A DNA stretch of 7,119 bases, from assembly GCA_937915975.1 (NCBI GenBank), contig CALGGL010000273.1, forward strand, positions 1 to 7,119, written 5' to 3'. The notes under the pieces are model-generated. The model did not search any database. It saw nothing but the letters and a program-made list of their open reading frames with translations, and had not been told where the DNA came from. Each line of letters starts with the position of its first letter. Position 1 is the first letter of the stretch. Positions 1-7,119 of this stretch are shown one piece after another. This stretch comes from an uncultured Lachnospiraceae bacterium (lineage in GTDB: Bacteria; Bacillota; Clostridia; Lachnospirales; Lachnospiraceae). The position numbers and the translations under genes were made by a program.

Positions 1-3
1 ATC

Positions 4-37
4 GTGACTGGAGTTCAGACGTGTGCTCTTCCGATCT
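4..37 (+). other. Illumina TruSeq read-2 adapter remnant (technical sequence)
   Basis: These 34 bases match, as I recall it, the TruSeq read-2/index adapter: they start GTGACTGGAGTTCAGACG and end GCTCTTCCGATCT. The preceding three bases (ATC) would be the tail of the sample index. This is untrimmed library sequence at a contig end, not biology. It creates a false in-frame TGA at 37-39, made of the last adapter base and two genomic bases. Genomic sequence therefore begins at 38. Confidence 0.97.
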
Positions 38-1284
38 GAAATTATGATTCAACTGAAAATATTTGGGAAAAATTAGACAAAGATTTACAAAAGGGAGAAA
101 CTTCTTTATCTTATTCACCCGATAAAAAGACCGCTGCCTATGAATATGCCGTATGCTATAAAAAAACAGCGGACACCATATCACTTCCCGAATCATTTAT
201 TACATTCACAGATCCTGGTTCCAGCATGAATTTGGCAGCAAAAGAAACATCTGGTCAGCATTACAATTATACAAACAAGTTACCCGAAAAATTAAACAAA
301 GGGTATTTACTTGCAACAACTTTTTCTGCACGATATGGCGGAAAACAAACTTCGGACGGAAAATCATACGAGCAAGACGAACGCTTCTATTCTGAATTCG
401 TAAATTGGAAGGAATGGGACTACTCAGAACGCTCAATAGGACCGTCAGCCGCATACATATCAATAAAGAATTACAATCTCTCTAACTCTTGGATAAAAAT
501 TGCAACGTTGGATGAAAACCTGCACTTTGCAAGCGCAGAAAGTTTAACGAATACAAGCATTTGGAACTCTGGAGACGAAGCAATATATCTAGCGCCAGAA
601 ACGGTGGCAAACACAAGCTCACTTCTAACAGAGGGCGTAATGCAAGTATTAAGAGATGCAAAACACTATTACTCTATAACTCTTGATTCTGTAACAATTG
701 GAGATGATGATTCTGTTTATGCCTACAGACAGATAAGCACCACGGAATTAATTCGCTCTGCAATGATTCAAATGAACGATGTTATGTACAGAGTTGGAAA
801 ACTCGATTTTGAAAATAAATCCGGCAGTGGTTCAATTCATGATGTAGCCGCCGATGAAGACAGAGACTTTGGTTCATACGCATTTGCACATCAGTCGACC
901 ATAAATATGGGTAAAGAATACAAATATTCGATAACGAATTACAGTTCTGATATGTCTTCACCAAGTAATTCGGCTGTCTCCTCAGTACAAATCTCTGTTC
1001 CAGAATCCTCTACATACAGAGACCATTTGGGTACAGGTGGTTATCCGAAATCATTTAATTCAACAACAATAACAGTTCGACCAAATGATTCTGAAAACAA
1101 ACTTGAAACATATTCCGGAACAATAACACTTTCAATCTCAAGCTATAAATCTGCAAGCCTTTCTTGTAACGGAACTTCAATCTCGATAAGTGATTCTACA
1201 ACACGAAGAAATTGGATTCCATTTAAATTAGATGATGATGATGACTGGTATCACGAGAATTCCTCTTACAAGTGGTGGAACTAA
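38..1284 (+). CDS. Hypothetical Ser/Asn/Asp-rich protein, 5'-truncated
   Basis: The frame is open from base 40 to the TAA at 1282-1284, giving 414 visible residues. The start is missing because the contig begins inside the gene; the ATG at 226 is only an internal methionine, since the frame before it reads as ordinary protein. I do not recognise a family. The visible protein has no membrane segment. It is rich in Ser, Thr, Asn, Tyr and Asp. Near 900-990 a stretch reading YKYSITNYSSDMSSPSNS looks like the last strands of an Fn3-like beta-sandwich. The C-terminus is a Ser/Thr-rich beta-type segment, then five Asp residues, then an aromatic tail ending KWWN. The gene lies 17 bases before a lipoprotein gene, and the stop codon overlaps that gene's ribosome binding site, so the two were probably co-transcribed. 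A secreted or surface protein is plausible by context, but the signal peptide would be in the missing part. Its AT-rich composition is unlike the next gene. Confidence 0.75.
1231..1245 (+). repeat. GAT codon run encoding five Asp residues
   Basis: Four GAT codons followed by GAC encode an Asp5 run close to the C-terminus of the truncated hypothetical protein, just before an aromatic tail (WYHENSSYKWWN). It is a short in-frame trinucleotide repeat that could vary in length without a frameshift. A cation-binding or merely low-complexity role cannot be told apart from sequence. Confidence 0.6.
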
Positions 1285-1290
1285 AAGGAG
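1283..1290 (+). promoter_or_regulatory. Ribosome binding site setting the lipoprotein start
   Basis: AAAAGGAG lies 11 bases before the ATG at 1302 and overlaps the stop codon of the upstream gene. It supports the start at 1302 over an in-frame ATG at 1272, which lies inside the upstream gene and would put ten polar residues ahead of the signal peptide. Confidence 0.7.
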
Positions 1291-1301
1291 AAACACGCAA
1301 A

Positions 1302-3110
1302 ATGAGACGACTGAATAGAATTACGGCGGGATTTTTTGCGGGGGCGGTGCTAGGAGGCGTGCTTACAGGATGCGCTGACTGGTTCCAGAGCAAGATTCCC
1401 ATGGACACCGAAACTGAGCCGGGAAGCTTAAGTGACTTCTTTACAAAAGAACAGAAAATCACCTCGCTGGCAACGCCTAATCAAATCTTTGTAACAAGGA
1501 ATGTGTATCCCGGTAAAATCAATGTTACGTGGACTGCTGTGGAGGGTGCAACCTCGTACCACATTCAGCGGGCGGTCATCACGCCAAACGCGGACGGAAC
1601 TTACAAGGAGCCTGAAACAAACAAGGAATTTGAGGACCTTGACTGGCAGACGCTGAACAAAAGCTTTTACCAGTCGGTATATACGGACACGATTCTTTCA
1701 AATCCTGGCGCATCAAACAAGGAATACCCCTACCACTACTACTACCGCGTCATGGCGCAAAACATAAAGAGCGGTCTGGAAAGCGATTTTACAAATCCGT
1801 ATGAAATTTGGCCAGAAACCGCCACAGAAGAAGCATACGAGACCTTCAATGCGGAACGGCAGGGCTTGGGCACTCTGTTTGCATGCCCCACGGCTCTTGA
1901 GGCAACCAAGGGCAAAAGCACCGACACGATTACGCTCAACTGGCAGGGCTGCGAGGGCGCTTCGTACTACGACATTTACCGCGACACGCGTGAAGATTTT
2001 ACCAGCGCGGCGCTGCTTGATTCCGTATACGGAACGCAGACGGAATATTCCATAAACATAATGACGACGGACCAGGGCAAGGACTTTTATTTTAAGGTTC
2101 GCGCCCGCAACGTGCAGGACAACGCTTCGGCTTCTACGGCGGTGGCAATGGGCTACGCGCTGCAGGCGGGCGCTCCGGCAACGCCGTCCAATGTTCTGGT
2201 TGTGGACGGACTTGGAACCAGCAAGGATTCCATTTCCGTTTCCTGGGAAGCTATAGAGTCCACCACGATTGCGCGCATAACATATTCCGTGTACCGCACA
2301 AGCTCCGTGGATTCCGTATACACGCTTTGCAAGAAGGACATTCCGGCAGAAACAAACAGTTTTACAGACGCAGGACTTTCAACAGGAATCTACTATTATT
2401 ACTATGTTCAGGCGGTTTCATACACCATAAAGGACGGCACAGAAACCGGAGAAACGCTTAAGAGCGCCTTTAGCGAAAGCGGCGCGGCAGCGGCAAAACC
2501 GGCGGTCGGATTCCTTTTAAGCCCGCCAGAAAGCCTTGAGGCACTCGACGCAGACACCGCAGACAAAATCCGGCTTATATGGACGCCGGCAATAGGCTCG
2601 GCAATAAGCACGGACGTCTCTGAAAAGCTGGAGGACAGCGCCTTTACCTACAACATCTATAAGAGCGCCGCGCAGGAAGGGCCGTTTGAGCTGCTTATGC
2701 AAAGCGTAGCCGGCACGGCATACGAAGGCGGCTACCTAAGTCAGGATGTAGAAAAAAGCAATTTCTATAAGATTTCTACCTTGAATGCGCAAGGAACAGA
2801 AAGCGTGTACAGCATTACCGCAGCGCCTGTTCCGGAAGCGCCTCAGAGCGTAACTGCCAGCAAGACGGCAAATCTTGCCGCGCAGTACGCAAGCCAGGCA
2901 GACTGGGAAGCCTCTTGCAACGGAAACGAGGTGTACCCGGTTTACATTACGTGGAAGGCTCCAAGCAGCGAGCCAAAGCCAGAAGGCTACAACATCTACC
3001 GCTCTACAAAGCCGGATTCCGCGTTCCGCAAGCTGAACGACGCGCACAGTCGGATCGTCTGGCAGCGCATAGACGCGCTTCTGTCCGACCTTGATCCAAA
3101 AGCGATTTAG
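1302..3110 (+). CDS. Multi-domain fibronectin type III-like lipoprotein, 3' end replaced at a chimeric junction
   Basis: The protein starts MRRLNR, followed by a hydrophobic segment and the lipobox LTGC, so it should be lipidated on Cys24 and held at the cell envelope. After a linker come Fn3-like beta-sandwich modules at about residues 57-171, 195-288, 293-394 and 407-510, and a fifth from 511. They share the usual marks: a start such as ATPSNV, an early Trp strand (INVTW, ITLNW, ISVSW, IRLIW, YITW), a YxxYR/YxIYK strand and a late aromatic strand ([18 protein letters not shown]). Module 1 carries an insertion of about 25 residues. Function is unknown; surface binding or scaffolding is inferred from the fold. 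The open frame runs to a TAG at 3108-3110 (602 codons), but Fn3 sense is lost after SAFRKLNDA, near base 3049 (about residue 583). The last 20 or so residues are therefore probably foreign, and the true C-terminus is missing. Style fits a treponemal lipoprotein. Confidence 0.85.
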
Positions 3111-3138
3111 AACGTACTCTCGCCGCCAGCGTGGATAG
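3049..3138. other. GC-rich insert of unknown origin inside the chimeric junction
   Basis: This stretch fits neither flank. On the + strand it ends the lipoprotein frame with a non-Fn3 sequence ([20 protein letters not shown], then a stop). On the - strand, after the adapter-like bases, one frame is open and reads [20 protein letters not shown] and on, basic and aromatic, which could be a fragment of a real protein from a third source such as a phage. I cannot identify it. The left edge is uncertain by about ten bases. Confidence 0.5.
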
Positions 3139-3156
3139 CGTTTGCACATCCGATCT
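3139..3156 (+). other. Adapter-like sequence at the chimera breakpoint
   Basis: CGTTTGCACATCCGATCT matches the last 18 bases of the TruSeq read-2 adapter at 15 positions, with the final eight (TCCGATCT) exact. Read on the - strand it is AGATCGGA, the first bases of adapter read-through, placed directly after the last credible der codon. The three mismatches and the loss of similarity further left mean it may be a degraded adapter read, or an eight-base coincidence exploited by the assembler. Confidence 0.65.
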
Positions 3157-3453
3157 ATCAACAAGCCCTTGCCTTACATCTGTAATAAACACAATTACGT
3201 CTGCTGTTTCTATGGCAATTTCCGCCTGTTCTCTCATGCTTTTCAGTATGATATCATTACTTTCAGGCTCTATACCGCCTGTGTCAACTATTGTAAAATT
3301 ATAATTCAGCCAACTGACATCGGCATATATTCTGTCTCTTGTTACTCCCGGTGTATCCTGTACAATCGATATTTTATCACCCGCCAGAGCATTAAAAAGA
3401 GTTGACTTACCTACATTAGGTCTGCCAACTATGGCAACTACCGGTCTGCTCAT
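3157..3453 (-). CDS. der: Der (EngA) ribosome-assembly GTPase, N-terminal fragment
   Basis: Der is an essential double-GTPase that binds the 50S subunit during late assembly. The 99 residues here cover most of its first GTPase domain: P-loop GRPNVGKS (10-17), switch-I segment DTPGVTRDR (33-41), Walker B/G3 DTGG (57-60), then [25 protein letters not shown]. Full-length Der is about 440 residues, so the NKxD of domain 1, the whole second GTPase domain and the KH-like domain are absent. Loss is by assembly, not mutation: at the codon after Asp99 the sequence becomes adapter-like, although the frame happens to stay open down to 3004 with meaningless sequence. AGGAG seven bases before the ATG supports the start. 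It is the last visible gene of the leftward operon, 37 bases after the DUF512 gene, an association I know from Clostridia. Confidence 0.95.
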
Positions 3454-3490
3454 ATTATTTCTCCTAAATCTGTTCTTTAATATCTATTAT

Positions 3491-4822
3491 TTAATCTTGC
3501 ATAAGTTCGATTATTTTTTCAAAAAAATCCGCACCATCTGATTGTACAATAATCACCGGAACTTGTAAAGCGTTTTGAAGCTCCTTAAGGGTTACGTCAT
3601 CAAGGAAAATATCCTCATCAGCCTTAAGCGTATTTGAAGGAATAAATAATACATCACCAAGGTTTTTTCCTTTTAATTGTTCGATTATATCCTTGCCTGT
3701 CAGAAGACCGGTCACGGTTATTCTTTCTCCAAAGAAGTTATTAATAATCTTAAATGTATTTATTTCAAGTCCGGGAACTGTATTTTTTATTATCTGCATG
3801 GCATTACAAAAAATCGGATAAGCCAAAACTCCCGATATTGTTGAAATAGTGATTTTTTTGTTACCTGTATTTCTTTTATCGGCTTTATATTCTTCTGCGG
3901 AGGTATTAATCTCATCAAGAAAAAGCCGTGTCATGCCAACACCGTTTTCAAGCTGTACATAACCGTCGTAATTATCCTCATCCGGTATATCATATCCTGC
4001 ATTTATGTACCATTCATCACTTGCATGGACAAAATGATAACCGTACTTTTCCATTGCAATATTCTGATACTTATGAATTATGTCTATTACCTCTTTAGCA
4101 TCATCAGACGAAAAAGGCTCAAGCTTATGAAGTCCTTCACGAAATTTTGTTAAACCGACAGGAACTACAGACAAGCTTTGAATAACCGGAGCATATTTTA
4201 AAAGGTCACTTATGGTTTTCTCCAATTCCTCTTTGTCATTTATACCCTTACAAAGAACTATTTGCGCATTCATAGGAATTTCAGCATCATACAGCATATC
4301 CATATAGCCAAGCAGTCTTCCCGCAAATCTGTTATGAAGCATCTCACATCTAAGTTCAGGATTGGTTGTATGAACAGATATATTTATAGGAGCCAGCTTA
4401 TATTTAATTATTCTTTCTATATCTTTCTCCAAAAGATTAGTCAGGGTTACATAATTTCCCTGTAAAAATGAAAGTCTGGTATCATCATCCTTAAAATATA
4501 TGGTTTCACGCATTCCCGGAGGATTCTGATCAATAAAGCAAAAAACACATTTATTGTGACAGCTTTTATATCGGTCCATAAGAGATTCACCAAAGGAAAG
4601 ACCTAAATCCTCATCCGCATCCTTTTCAACCTCTAAAAGCCATTCCTCACCATCAGCTTTTTCAATCAGAATCTCGATATATTCATCCTCAACAAGATAA
4701 TGATAATCAAATATATCCGCTATTTCCTTGTCATTAATCGATACAAGATAATCTCCTGCTTCTATTTCAAGTTCTTCGGCAATACTATCCTTAGTAACAC
4801 TGCATATAAGATGTTTTTTCAT
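3491..4822 (-). CDS. DUF512 protein with PDZ-like and radical-SAM-like domains
   Basis: A 443-residue protein with the three-part layout of the DUF512 family. Residues 1 to about 65 form a PDZ-like domain (AGDYLVSINDKEIADIFDYH). A cysteine cluster CHNKCVFC (Cys88, Cys92, Cys95) followed by FIDQNPPGMR has the CxxxCxxC spacing of a radical-SAM 4Fe-4S site. The DUF512 region proper fills the C-terminal half (LSVVPVGLTKFREGL near the middle, then the VLAYPIF and FGERITVTGLLTG stretches). The family is conserved in Clostridia and Cyanobacteria and its reaction is unknown to me; an iron-sulfur enzyme is inferred. The usual neighbour der lies 37 bases downstream. An in-frame TTG (4837) and GTG (4834) lie upstream, but they sit within the GGTGG that precedes the ATG at 4822, so I take the ATG. 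Confidence 0.9.
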   Translation of the reverse strand: MKKHLICSVTKDSIAEELEIEAGDYLVSINDKEIADIFDYHYLVEDEYIEILIEKADGEEWLLEVEKDADEDLGLSFGESLMDRYKSCHNKCVFCFIDQNPPGMRETIYFKDDDTRLSFLQGNYVTLTNLLEKDIERIIKYKLAPINISVHTTNPELRCEMLHNRFAGRLLGYMDMLYDAEIPMNAQIVLCKGINDKEELEKTISDLLKYAPVIQSLSVVPVGLTKFREGLHKLEPFSSDDAKEVIDIIHKYQNIAMEKYGYHFVHASDEWYINAGYDIPDEDNYDGYVQLENGVGMTRLFLDEINTSAEEYKADKRNTGNKKITISTISGVLAYPIFCNAMQIIKNTVPGLEINTFKIINNFFGERITVTGLLTGKDIIEQLKGKNLGDVLFIPSNTLKADEDIFLDDVTLKELQNALQVPVIIVQSDGADFFEKIIELMQD

Positions 4823-4830
4823 TTTAAAGT

Positions 4831-4835
4831 CCACC
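4831..4835 (-). promoter_or_regulatory. Weak ribosome binding site deciding the DUF512 start
   Basis: GGTGG on the - strand lies eight bases before the ATG at 4822. The longer frames starting at TTG 4837 or GTG 4834 would start inside this site and have no evident Shine-Dalgarno of their own, so the shorter start is preferred. Confidence 0.5.
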
Positions 4836-4858
4836 AAATCATCTTAATTATTAAAAAA

Positions 4859-5782
4859 TTATATTTCTTTAAGCATCATAACCGCGGCAAGGTTACCACG
4901 CATTCCACGGCTTGCCCTGTGTGAATAAAGAATATTTTTATTACAGCTTGTACAAAGATCAGGCATGGCAATGTTTTCAGGTAAAATACCGGCATTTAAC
5001 AGATTGATTCTGCAAGCCAAATGAAGATCCAACTGATATTTTCCTTCACCCTTATCATCTGCTATCTTTTCAATTTCTTTATCTGAAAAGCATTCCTTAA
5101 TCCTGTCCATCACAATATCATCAACCTCATAGCATTTACGACATATGGACGGACCGATAGCACAAACAATATCCGATTCGGATGAACCATATTCCTCTTT
5201 CATGGTTTGTACCATCTTTTTTGCTATATTCTTTACGGTTCCTTTCCATCCCGAATGTGCAAGCCCGATAATCTTTTTTTCCTTATCATAAAAATAAATC
5301 GGTACGCAATCGGCATAAAAGGTCATAATGGGAATATCGGGAAGATTGGTCAAAAGTCCGTCGGTTTCTTTTATATCACTCTCTTTAACAATTCCCTTAC
5401 CCGCATCATCTTCACTTTTTATCACACGAATATTGGTATTGTGAACCTGATCGGAAAATACCAGTCTTTTATAATCATAACCACAGGAAGCAGCAAAACG
5501 TTTATGGTTTTCCATCACATTTTCTTCCTCGTCACCACGCGAAAAGCTTAAATTCAGGCTTGAAAGATGTGCCTTACTTACTCCTCCGAGTCTTGTTGAA
5601 AAGCCGGTTATCAGATTATCATAATCATCAAATATTTTATATTTTATAACCGGAACATCCTTATAATCAAAATATGTGGTTCTGTTCTCAAAGCTATACG
5701 GTTCTATATACCTTTGAAGATGCTCATTTCTTCTAAGCATAAAGGTTGCATCAGTTTTTAAATCAAATCTTTTTCTCTCCAT
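4859..5782 (-). CDS. pgeF: PgeF/YfiH family protein (peptidoglycan editing factor, multicopper-oxidase-like fold)
   Basis: A 307-residue member of the YfiH/DUF152 (Cu-oxidase_4) family. In Escherichia coli YfiH (PgeF) prevents misincorporation into the peptidoglycan stem peptide; other members, including human LACC1/FAMIN, act on purine nucleosides. The zinc-binding His-Cys-His set is present: QVH (His114), ADCVPI (Cys159) and HSGWKGT (His176). Other family marks are FSTRLGGVS (61-69), IGPSICRKCYEV, DLCTSC and the C-terminal SHRASRGMRGNLAAV. Family members are often near 250 residues; the extra length is an N-terminal extension of about 40-45 residues before the core strand VIKYKIF. GGGAGG four bases before the ATG supports this start, and the site begins just after the yraN stop, so translation is probably coupled. 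Catalytic residues look intact. Substrate cannot be read from sequence. Confidence 0.93.
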   Translation of the reverse strand: MERKRFDLKTDATFMLRRNEHLQRYIEPYSFENRTTYFDYKDVPVIKYKIFDDYDNLITGFSTRLGGVSKAHLSSLNLSFSRGDEEENVMENHKRFAASCGYDYKRLVFSDQVHNTNIRVIKSEDDAGKGIVKESDIKETDGLLTNLPDIPIMTFYADCVPIYFYDKEKKIIGLAHSGWKGTVKNIAKKMVQTMKEEYGSSESDIVCAIGPSICRKCYEVDDIVMDRIKECFSDKEIEKIADDKGEGKYQLDLHLACRINLLNAGILPENIAMPDLCTSCNKNILYSHRASRGMRGNLAAVMMLKEI

Positions 5783-5794
5783 ATATCCTCCCTT

Positions 5795-6175
5795 TTATCT
5801 GTATCCGAATCCGGTATAAGAAAATGCATTTTTAATATGGGTGATTTTATCATCACATATTCCCACCGCATCAAACCTTATCGGAGTTACATCTAAAGAC
5901 AGCTTTTTCATACAAAGGTATGAAAGCGCTCCCATACTGATTCTTCTTTGCTTATTGTAATTTACGGCTTCCAAGGGACTTCCGAAGCTTTGGCTTTTTC
6001 TGTATTTAACCTCAACAAAAACCAGTGTATTACCGTCTCTGGCAATTATATCAATTTCTTCATATCTGGTCCTGAAATTTGTCTCAAGTATATCATAACC
6101 TAAGTCTTTTAAGTAATCAACTGTCAGCTTTTCCTTGTCGAATCCAAGCCTGCGTTTATTAACTTTCCCATACAT
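5795..6175 (-). CDS. yraN: YraN family (UPF0102) endonuclease-like protein
   Basis: A 126-residue protein of normal family length with the restriction-endonuclease-like core: YLKDLGYDILETNFRTRYEEIDIIARDGNTLVFVEVKYR. The Asp of EEID and the Glu-x-Lys of FVEVKYR occupy the places of a D-ExK metal-binding nuclease site. The usual Gly-Glu-Ile-Asp motif here reads Glu-Glu-Ile-Asp. The conserved C-terminal pattern (VNYNKQRRI, then IRFDAVGI) is also present. The biological role is not established; nuclease activity is inferred from the fold. A TTG at 6181 is in frame, but AGGGTGA ending six bases before the ATG at 6175 favours the ATG. The stop is 12 bases before pgeF and 56 bases separate it from the gene upstream, consistent with one transcript. 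Confidence 0.92.
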   Translation of the reverse strand: MYGKVNKRRLGFDKEKLTVDYLKDLGYDILETNFRTRYEEIDIIARDGNTLVFVEVKYRKSQSFGSPLEAVNYNKQRRISMGALSYLCMKKLSLDVTPIRFDAVGICDDKITHIKNAFSYTGFGYR

Positions 6176-6181
6176 AATCAA

Positions 6182-6188
6182 TCACCCT
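6182..6188 (-). promoter_or_regulatory. Ribosome binding site deciding the yraN start
   Basis: AGGGTGA on the - strand, continuing as T, matches the anti-Shine-Dalgarno extension GGTGAT and lies six bases from the ATG at 6175. It directly abuts the alternative TTG at 6181, which is too close to be used. Confidence 0.55.
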
Positions 6189-6231
6189 GACTATTAAAAT
6201 CAAAATATTATAATTAATCATATAACCGAAG

Positions 6232-6549
6232 CTACATATTAAGCTTAGCCTTAATCTTATCCATCTTATCAACATATACAAGAATTTCCGCAACAACGCC
6301 ATACAATTCCGGAGGTATGCAGTCTCCGATATCAAGGTTAAGCAGGGTTTCCGCAAGGTTTGTATCCTTATAAAGAGGTACATCACTTTGCTTTGCAGTC
6401 TCTATTATTTTTTCGGCAATAAGGCCTTTACCGGATGCGACAACCTGTGGCGCCTGACTACCCGGCTCATACATAAGCGCTACAGCTTTTTTCTTAGGCT
6501 CCTGACCTTTATTTTTATTGTTGCTTTTATTATTAAATCCGTATTCCAT
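6232..6549 (-). CDS. FlhB-like cytoplasmic-domain protein (EscU/YscU/HrcU export-switch family, YlqH type)
   Basis: A 105-residue soluble protein matching only the C-terminal cytoplasmic part of FlhB, the specificity switch of the flagellar type III exporter. Matching segments are KKKAVALMYEPG (19-30), APQVVASGKGLIAEKI (33-48), VPLYKDTNLAETLL (57-70) and IGDCIPPELYGVVAEILVYV (74-93). The four transmembrane helices are absent, and so is the autocleavage motif NPTH: the chain begins with a polar Asn/Lys-rich stretch and enters the first strand at AVAL. This corresponds to the small paralogue known in Bacillus as YlqH, not to truncated FlhB; the function of this type is unclear. AAGGTGA five bases before the ATG supports this start over the upstream in-frame GTG at 6558, which lies within that site. 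It sits directly after a FliK-like gene, FliK being FlhB's classical partner. Confidence 0.9.
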   Translation of the reverse strand: MEYGFNNKSNNKNKGQEPKKKAVALMYEPGSQAPQVVASGKGLIAEKIIETAKQSDVPLYKDTNLAETLLNLDIGDCIPPELYGVVAEILVYVDKMDKIKAKLNM

Positions 6550-6554
6550 ATCTA

Positions 6555-6561
6555 TCACCTT
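6555..6561 (-). promoter_or_regulatory. Ribosome binding site deciding the FlhB-like start
   Basis: AAGGTGA on the - strand, followed by T, is a strong Shine-Dalgarno match five bases from the ATG at 6549. The alternative GTG start at 6558 is part of this element. Confidence 0.6.
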
Positions 6562-6603
6562 TTAATCAAACATAAGCTAAAAATCTTGCCATAACGAGAA
6601 AAT

Positions 6604-7119
6604 CTACATTCTAACATCAAACGAGTATCTTTTTACACTCTTTTCAAGCTCGTTACCAAGCATTTCGTTTACAACCATATTTTCAGGTAAAGCAAGTGCA
6701 GGCTCCCTTGTAATGACCTCATTGGTAAGTGAATGCCCCGTTTCTTTTATTGCTTTTTCAAGCATAGTCATATGCTCATCGATTATTCTGGCACTTTCCT
6801 CATCCTCAACATAAAATTTAGTATGAACATTGTTACCGTGAAGACTTACATGAACATCTGTCGGACCAAGGAATTTCATATCAAGATGAAGTAATGCACT
6901 GATATTATCCTTTGACTCCTGCATTTTCTTTTTGTTCATATATACAAAGAGCTCGGAATTTGCCTCATTACCATCCGTTCTGAAAGGAATTTGAGCGTAT
7001 GCGTACATATTATTAAGATTTTGCATAAAATCAATTCTTTCCTGCATTCCCTTTGCATTTTCGGATAAATTTTTACCTGCACTTCCGGAATTATCCGAAA
7101 ATGCTTTCATAAGCTTATC
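6604..7119 (-). CDS. FliK-like C-terminal (hook-length control) domain protein, 5'-truncated by window end
   Basis: The frame is open through the right edge, giving 171 visible residues and no start; the Met at 7110 is probably internal because the frame continues before it. A Ser/Asn-rich, poorly ordered segment leads into AQIPFRTDGNEANSELFVYM, then ISALLHLDMKFLGPTDVHVSLHGNNVHTKFYVEDEES and a helical end. The pattern of a hydrophobic strand, LGP, V-V-L, and a second strand carrying V-F/Y is that of the FliK C-terminal domain, which in flagella interacts with FlhB to stop hook growth. The paired FlhB-like gene 54 bases downstream supports the call. Identity as a true hook ruler is unproven: proteins of this style exist beside YlqH-type genes outside the main flagellar operons. 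The likely long, low-complexity N-terminal part lies outside the window. Confidence 0.72.
   Translation of the reverse strand, partial: DKLMKAFSDNSGSAGKNLSENAKGMQERIDFMQNLNNMYAYAQIPFRTDGNEANSELFVYMNKKKMQESKDNISALLHLDMKFLGPTDVHVSLHGNNVHTKFYVEDEESARIIDEHMTMLEKAIKETGHSLTNEVITREPALALPENMVVNEMLGNELEKSVKRYSFDVRM

Follow-up and report, generated by a model that had tools for sequence, protein, structure and literature searches.

The contig examined here (the window, meaning the whole stretch of 7119 bases that was analysed and within which all positions are counted) is very probably chimeric, a Treponema-like fragment (38-3044) appearing to be wrongly joined to a Lachnospiraceae fragment (3157-7119). 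It probably stems from a metagenome. The relatives of the two flanks belong to different phyla, with Treponema/Spirochaetaceae on the left, as judged by the fibronectin type III (fn3) gene, and Lachnospiraceae on the right. Both genes bordering the join, fn3 and der, are broken mid-frame, while their relatives are longer. These observations support the central claim of an earlier, sequence-only reading of this DNA, which had proposed a chimeric join between two unrelated genomes. A joining error in sequencing or assembly has probably brought the genes on either side together, so that they are not true neighbours. The features of the window are given in Table 1.

Table 1 Features of the 7119-base window, from left to right, with the basis of each assignment.
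Feature	Position	Strand	Basis or remark
Illumina adapter, presumably TruSeq index-side, in read-through orientation	1..37	minus	34-base adapter at 4-37, atc at 1-3
ORF A, 414 codons and stop, 5' end open at the adapter	40..1284	plus	no family match
Treponeme fibronectin type III lipoprotein-like gene, first 581 codons, C-terminal part missing	1302..3044	plus	relatives; Pfam fn3 1.6e-08
112-base filler between the flanks, GC 0.55	3045..3156	no strand	no convincing match in the collections searched
Adapter-like 18-mer, at the first base beyond the der break	3139..3156	minus	15/18 bases, first 8 exact
der (GTPase EngA), truncated to its first 99 codons	3157..3453	minus	identity as high as 100% over 1-99 in tblastn
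PDZ / radical SAM-like DUF512 protein	3491..4837	minus	Lachnospiraceae relatives
Peptidoglycan editing factor PgeF (YfiH family)	4859..5782	minus	TIGR00726 over cut-off
YraN (UPF0102) family protein	5795..6181	minus	family match
FlhB-like C-terminal domain protein	6232..6558	minus	domain match
C-terminal part of a FliK-like hook-length control protein, running off the contig end	6604..7119	minus	Flg_hook 3.6e-10

The right flank and the truncated der gene

The right flank is assigned to the Lachnospiraceae by its proteins and by its gene order. For the DUF512 protein, 7995 relatives were scored and 120 listed; the ten listed rows that name a taxon comprise eight Lachnospiraceae, one Wujia sp. 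and one Eubacteriales. A scan of genome contigs confirmed 124 loci related to the right flank, 80 of which were kept for comparison. The seven closest (L001-L007) share 74-83% protein identity with the window and are all titled Lachnospiraceae, omasum and rumen being named in the titles of L003 and L005. At the nucleotide level, blastn gave 105 matches from 58 of the 80 loci. In five of the closest seven (L001, L002, L004, L005 and L007), positions 3157-7119 align as a single colinear block at 74.8-76.3% identity; the alignment falls into two blocks in L003 (3157-5783 and 5802-7119, 75.2% and 72.8%) and in L006 (3157-5656 and 6237-7086, 71.3% and 69.2%).

The earlier reading had der running normally for 99 codons down to base 3157, and the comparison with relatives places the end of homology at this very base, where the blastn match begins in all seven closest loci. 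Four more distant der matches (L034, L035, L039 and L044) overrun it by 9-15 bases, to 3142-3148. Left of 3142, blastn found no similarity to the window in any of the 80 loci, which agrees, for the right-flank side, with the expectation that no sequenced genome is colinear across the join. When a 149-residue read across the join was searched with tblastn, 76 of the 80 loci returned 151 matches, including der's second GTPase domain. The match ended at residue 97-102 in 143 cases and at residue 92 in one; the seven that ended at residue 106-119, like the four nucleotide matches overrunning 3157, are taken as chance extension.

What follows codon 99 also sets the window apart. All 12 relatives read at this point continue with ADGKVADMLRRS, where the window has RSDVQ, and over the following 60 bases these relatives and the window agree at only 10-15 positions. 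The seven nearest genomes all carry open der frames of 441-452 aa that include the C-terminal KH domain, compared with 99 codons in the window. Because homology stops at 3157, the relatives continue with ADGKVADMLRRS and their frames extend to the KH domain, we conclude that der is cut at this position.

One database protein bears on the extent of the right-hand fragment. A 443-aa DUF512 protein (P0121) shares 100% identity with that of the window at 99% query coverage, and its record names a contig of 4,243 bases. Given this record, the Lachnospiraceae segment may also be present in another assembly that lacks the treponeme part.

The left flank: fn3 gene and ORF A

At E values up to 0.001, 159 relatives of the fn3 protein were found, and the protein matches the Pfam fn3 family (1.6e-08). 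Among the 120 of these 159 that were listed, all seven with a taxon name are assigned to Treponema (six) or Spirochaetaceae (one). Comparing the flanks separately with their relatives, as had been suggested, thus yields the treponeme group on the left through this protein and Lachnospiraceae on the right. In an alignment with 10 of the 159 relatives, which are 743-869 aa long and 43-52% identical, the similarity runs to the motif FRKLNDA (residue 581, base 3044) and then ends, leaving the window copy with 581 residues.

The protein returned no match in the seven closest Lachnospiraceae genomes, in a search run without a positive control, and the fn3 alignment search found no relative among viral contigs. 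When 392 genomes of the order to which the Lachnospiraceae genome belongs were searched, 14 gave weak partial matches of 18-31.5 bits, which is what other fn3 proteins would give.

ORF A has no match in Pfam, NCBIfam, plasmids, viral contigs or the 392 genomes, and its base composition differs from that of the gene it precedes. Its GC content is 0.374 (GC3 0.30), compared with about 0.523 (GC3 0.60) for the fn3 gene and 0.356 for the right half, and its dinucleotide distance is 0.160 to the fn3 gene versus 0.123 to the right half. A GC step therefore lies near 1290 (1284-1302), between two adjacent genes on the same strand. That ORF A is closer in composition to the right half than to the fn3 gene speaks against the wrong join. 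The change in GC at the join, noted in the earlier reading, holds for the fn3 gene (0.523 versus 0.356) but does not extend to ORF A, which has its own step; we rejected GC content as the sole marker of the join, since the value for ORF A is close to that of the right half.

We nevertheless infer that ORF A and the fn3 gene belong together, because the spacing between the two looks natural, an AAGGAG motif precedes the fn3 start codon and both genes lack an excess of G on the coding strand (GC skew -0.05 and 0.01, compared with 0.20 to 0.27 on the right-hand coding strands). The step at 1284-1302 may be natural variation, or else another join may be hidden there.

A probable third segment between the flanks

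The earlier reading envisaged a single clean join, and this part of it did not stand. Treponeme homology ends at 3044, so the 112 bases from 3045 to 3156, with a GC content of 0.55, match neither flank as far as tested. There are probably two joins with a third piece between them, rather than one. Likeness to an adapter is confined to the 18 bases next to der (3139-3156), and a further 94 bases precede the treponeme DNA.

Searches with this filler gave no convincing match in any collection. A distant blastn search of plasmids returned a single 33-base match (E 0.1), and nothing was found in phages and E. coli. One frame searched with tblastn against plasmids gave two matches at E 10 only. In Pfam the three frame translations produced one match below the cut-off (E 0.085); in the protein database they recovered, from 165 candidates, nothing but the window's own protein. 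No solved structure matched the one frame searched, no exact 25-mer of the filler occurs in viral contigs, and a degenerate 10-residue pattern from one frame is absent from genome and viral contigs. The 392 genomes of the order gave no match to the filler in a search without a positive control, and Rfam has no match anywhere in the window. The filler may itself have come from a treponeme.

Adapter sequence at the contig end and an adapter-like string at the join

An intact adapter at the left end of the contig had been reported in the earlier reading, and we find it exact over its 34 bases (4-37), preceded by atc at 1-3. We take this 34-mer to be the index-side adapter of the TruSeq kit; the three preceding bases would presumably match, as reverse complement, the end of TruSeq index 9. 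Such an index-like atc could help to name the library. On the minus strand, positions 20-37 match AGATCGGAAGAGCACACG at 18 of 18 bases. The first 33 bases of the adapter present at 4-37 are given in Moeller et al. 2024 (PMC11536531).

A second string, resembling the start of this adapter, borders der. AGATCGGA begins at the base directly after der's 99 codons, and 15 of its first 18 bases match the adapter, as the earlier reading had counted; the 18-mer itself, AGATCGGATGTGCAAACG (3139-3156, minus strand), differs from AGATCGGAAGAGCACACG by three mismatches. Apart from the intact adapter at 20-37, this is the only site in the window that matches AGATCGGAAGAGCACACG with three mismatches or fewer, the next best site on the minus strand having six. 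Dinucleotide shuffles gave, at the same threshold, 0.01 matches per window on average. The local alignment of the join region with the index-side adapter scores 12, a value reached by 1 of 1000 base shuffles.

The other adapters tried against the join region were rejected. For Nextera and two flow-cell tails, 530 to 996 of 1000 shuffles score as well or better. On the plus strand, the index-side adapter is equalled by 305 of 1000 shuffles and the other TruSeq adapter by 826 of 1000; the latter on the minus strand with gaps is equalled by 46 of 1000, which we take as chance.

The claim that adapter sequence marks the join therefore stands in part. On the der side, the 18-mer opens with eight exact bases, directly where der homology ends. 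However, the likeness covers 18 bases only and includes three mismatches, it is gone thereafter (3 of the 16 following bases match), and it does not account for the other 94 bases of the filler. The abrupt end and the mismatches argue against a role of the adapter, the more so as the copy at the left end is perfect. The 18-mer is not a full adapter, and a chance origin is unlikely. We consider it likely, on the strength of this resemblance and its position, that an adapter played a part at the join point.

Possible origin of the join

Short inserts in the library may have caused reads to run on into adapter that was then incompletely trimmed. The adapter tail left on der, carrying errors, could subsequently have become linked to the filler as a third short piece and, beyond it, to the treponeme fragment. 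The join itself would have formed in the library, as a chimera made by ligation or PCR, or in the assembler, through a weak overlap.

The first of these routes is a variant of the same explanation in which the library molecule itself is chimeric, through ligation or PCR template switching, and the assembler made no join. We give it about an even chance. The der side shows no true overlap, given the 10-15 of 60 bases shared between the filler and the continuation in the 12 relatives, and the filler seems to be of short-insert size; low-stringency overlap or gap filling could, however, look alike.

A second variant keeps the chimera but treats the 18-mer as the natural start of the filler DNA, with no role in the join. 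This appears rather doubtful, though parts of the evidence favour it: the likeness ends after 18 bases, two frames on the minus strand run open through the filler and the 18-mer, and no adapter string was seen at the filler's left border. Against it, eight exact bases stand right at the break, for which the chance at a fixed position is about 1 in 65,000, and the overall agreement of 15 of 18 bases is rarely matched by shuffled sequence, as noted above.

Genuine recombination or transfer that set Lachnospiraceae DNA beside treponeme DNA in one genome is extremely improbable: the join is present in the contig as assembled, two of the closest right-hand loci (L005 and L003) have rumen or omasum in their titles and treponemes also live in this habitat, but both genes would have to break mid-frame, leaving a transferred der as a 99-codon stub, and the break would have to fall by coincidence, to the base, on an adapter-like string in a contig that also carries an intact adapter. 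It is just as hard to credit the join as real DNA in the form of a treponeme replicon that acquired part of a Lachnospiraceae chromosome and carries the 112-base filler, of undescribed source, at the seam.

Comparison with known cases

Residual adapter is also present in public contigs. In IMG/VR, at least 120 stretches contain the exact 34-mer. Of 120 loci fetched, 119 have it no more than 300 bases from a locus end, locus ends not always being contig ends. Its orientation is the same as in our contig in 120 of 121 copies. One locus (L155) carries the adapter at both ends, at 9-42 and 5014-5047. Another (L097) has an exact copy inside, at 3889-3922 of 5179 and thus 1,257 bases from the end. 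As in the window, the adapter in L097 stands inside a contig, and it points to the nearer end as in read-through; it differs in that the adapter is intact and the GC content is similar on either side, whereas the 18-mer of the window is imperfect. A second internal adapter join is possible in L097.

The kind of artefact proposed here is already known from published work on adapter contamination of assemblies. According to the sections of Moeller et al. (PMC11536531) available to us, 1110 of the 15,657 species assemblies from MGnify are enriched in adapters (p < 0.01), with about 157 expected; the adapters are concentrated at contig ends, and cow rumen is among the databases tested. These sections describe TruSeq adapter left in microbial contigs, with the reverse complement at contig beginnings, as found at 1-37 in the window. 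The case at the join differs, in that the adapters described there lie at contig ends, whereas an imperfect 18-base piece lies inside our contig at an inter-phylum join. The portion of PMC8172020 at hand likewise describes two genomes merged in one contig; its partners are similar (Salmonella enterica and Escherichia coli), while those of the window belong to different phyla.

Implications

Should the 18-mer be an adapter remnant, it would be missed by an exact 12-base adapter search of the kind counted in PMC11536531. As a matter of data hygiene, the contig is best split at about 3044 and 3157, and its first 37 bases dropped, before any analysis of gene neighbourhood, transfer or binning. Gene order across 3045-3156 should be regarded as without meaning. 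Left unsplit, the contig would mimic an inter-phylum gene transfer with a truncated der.
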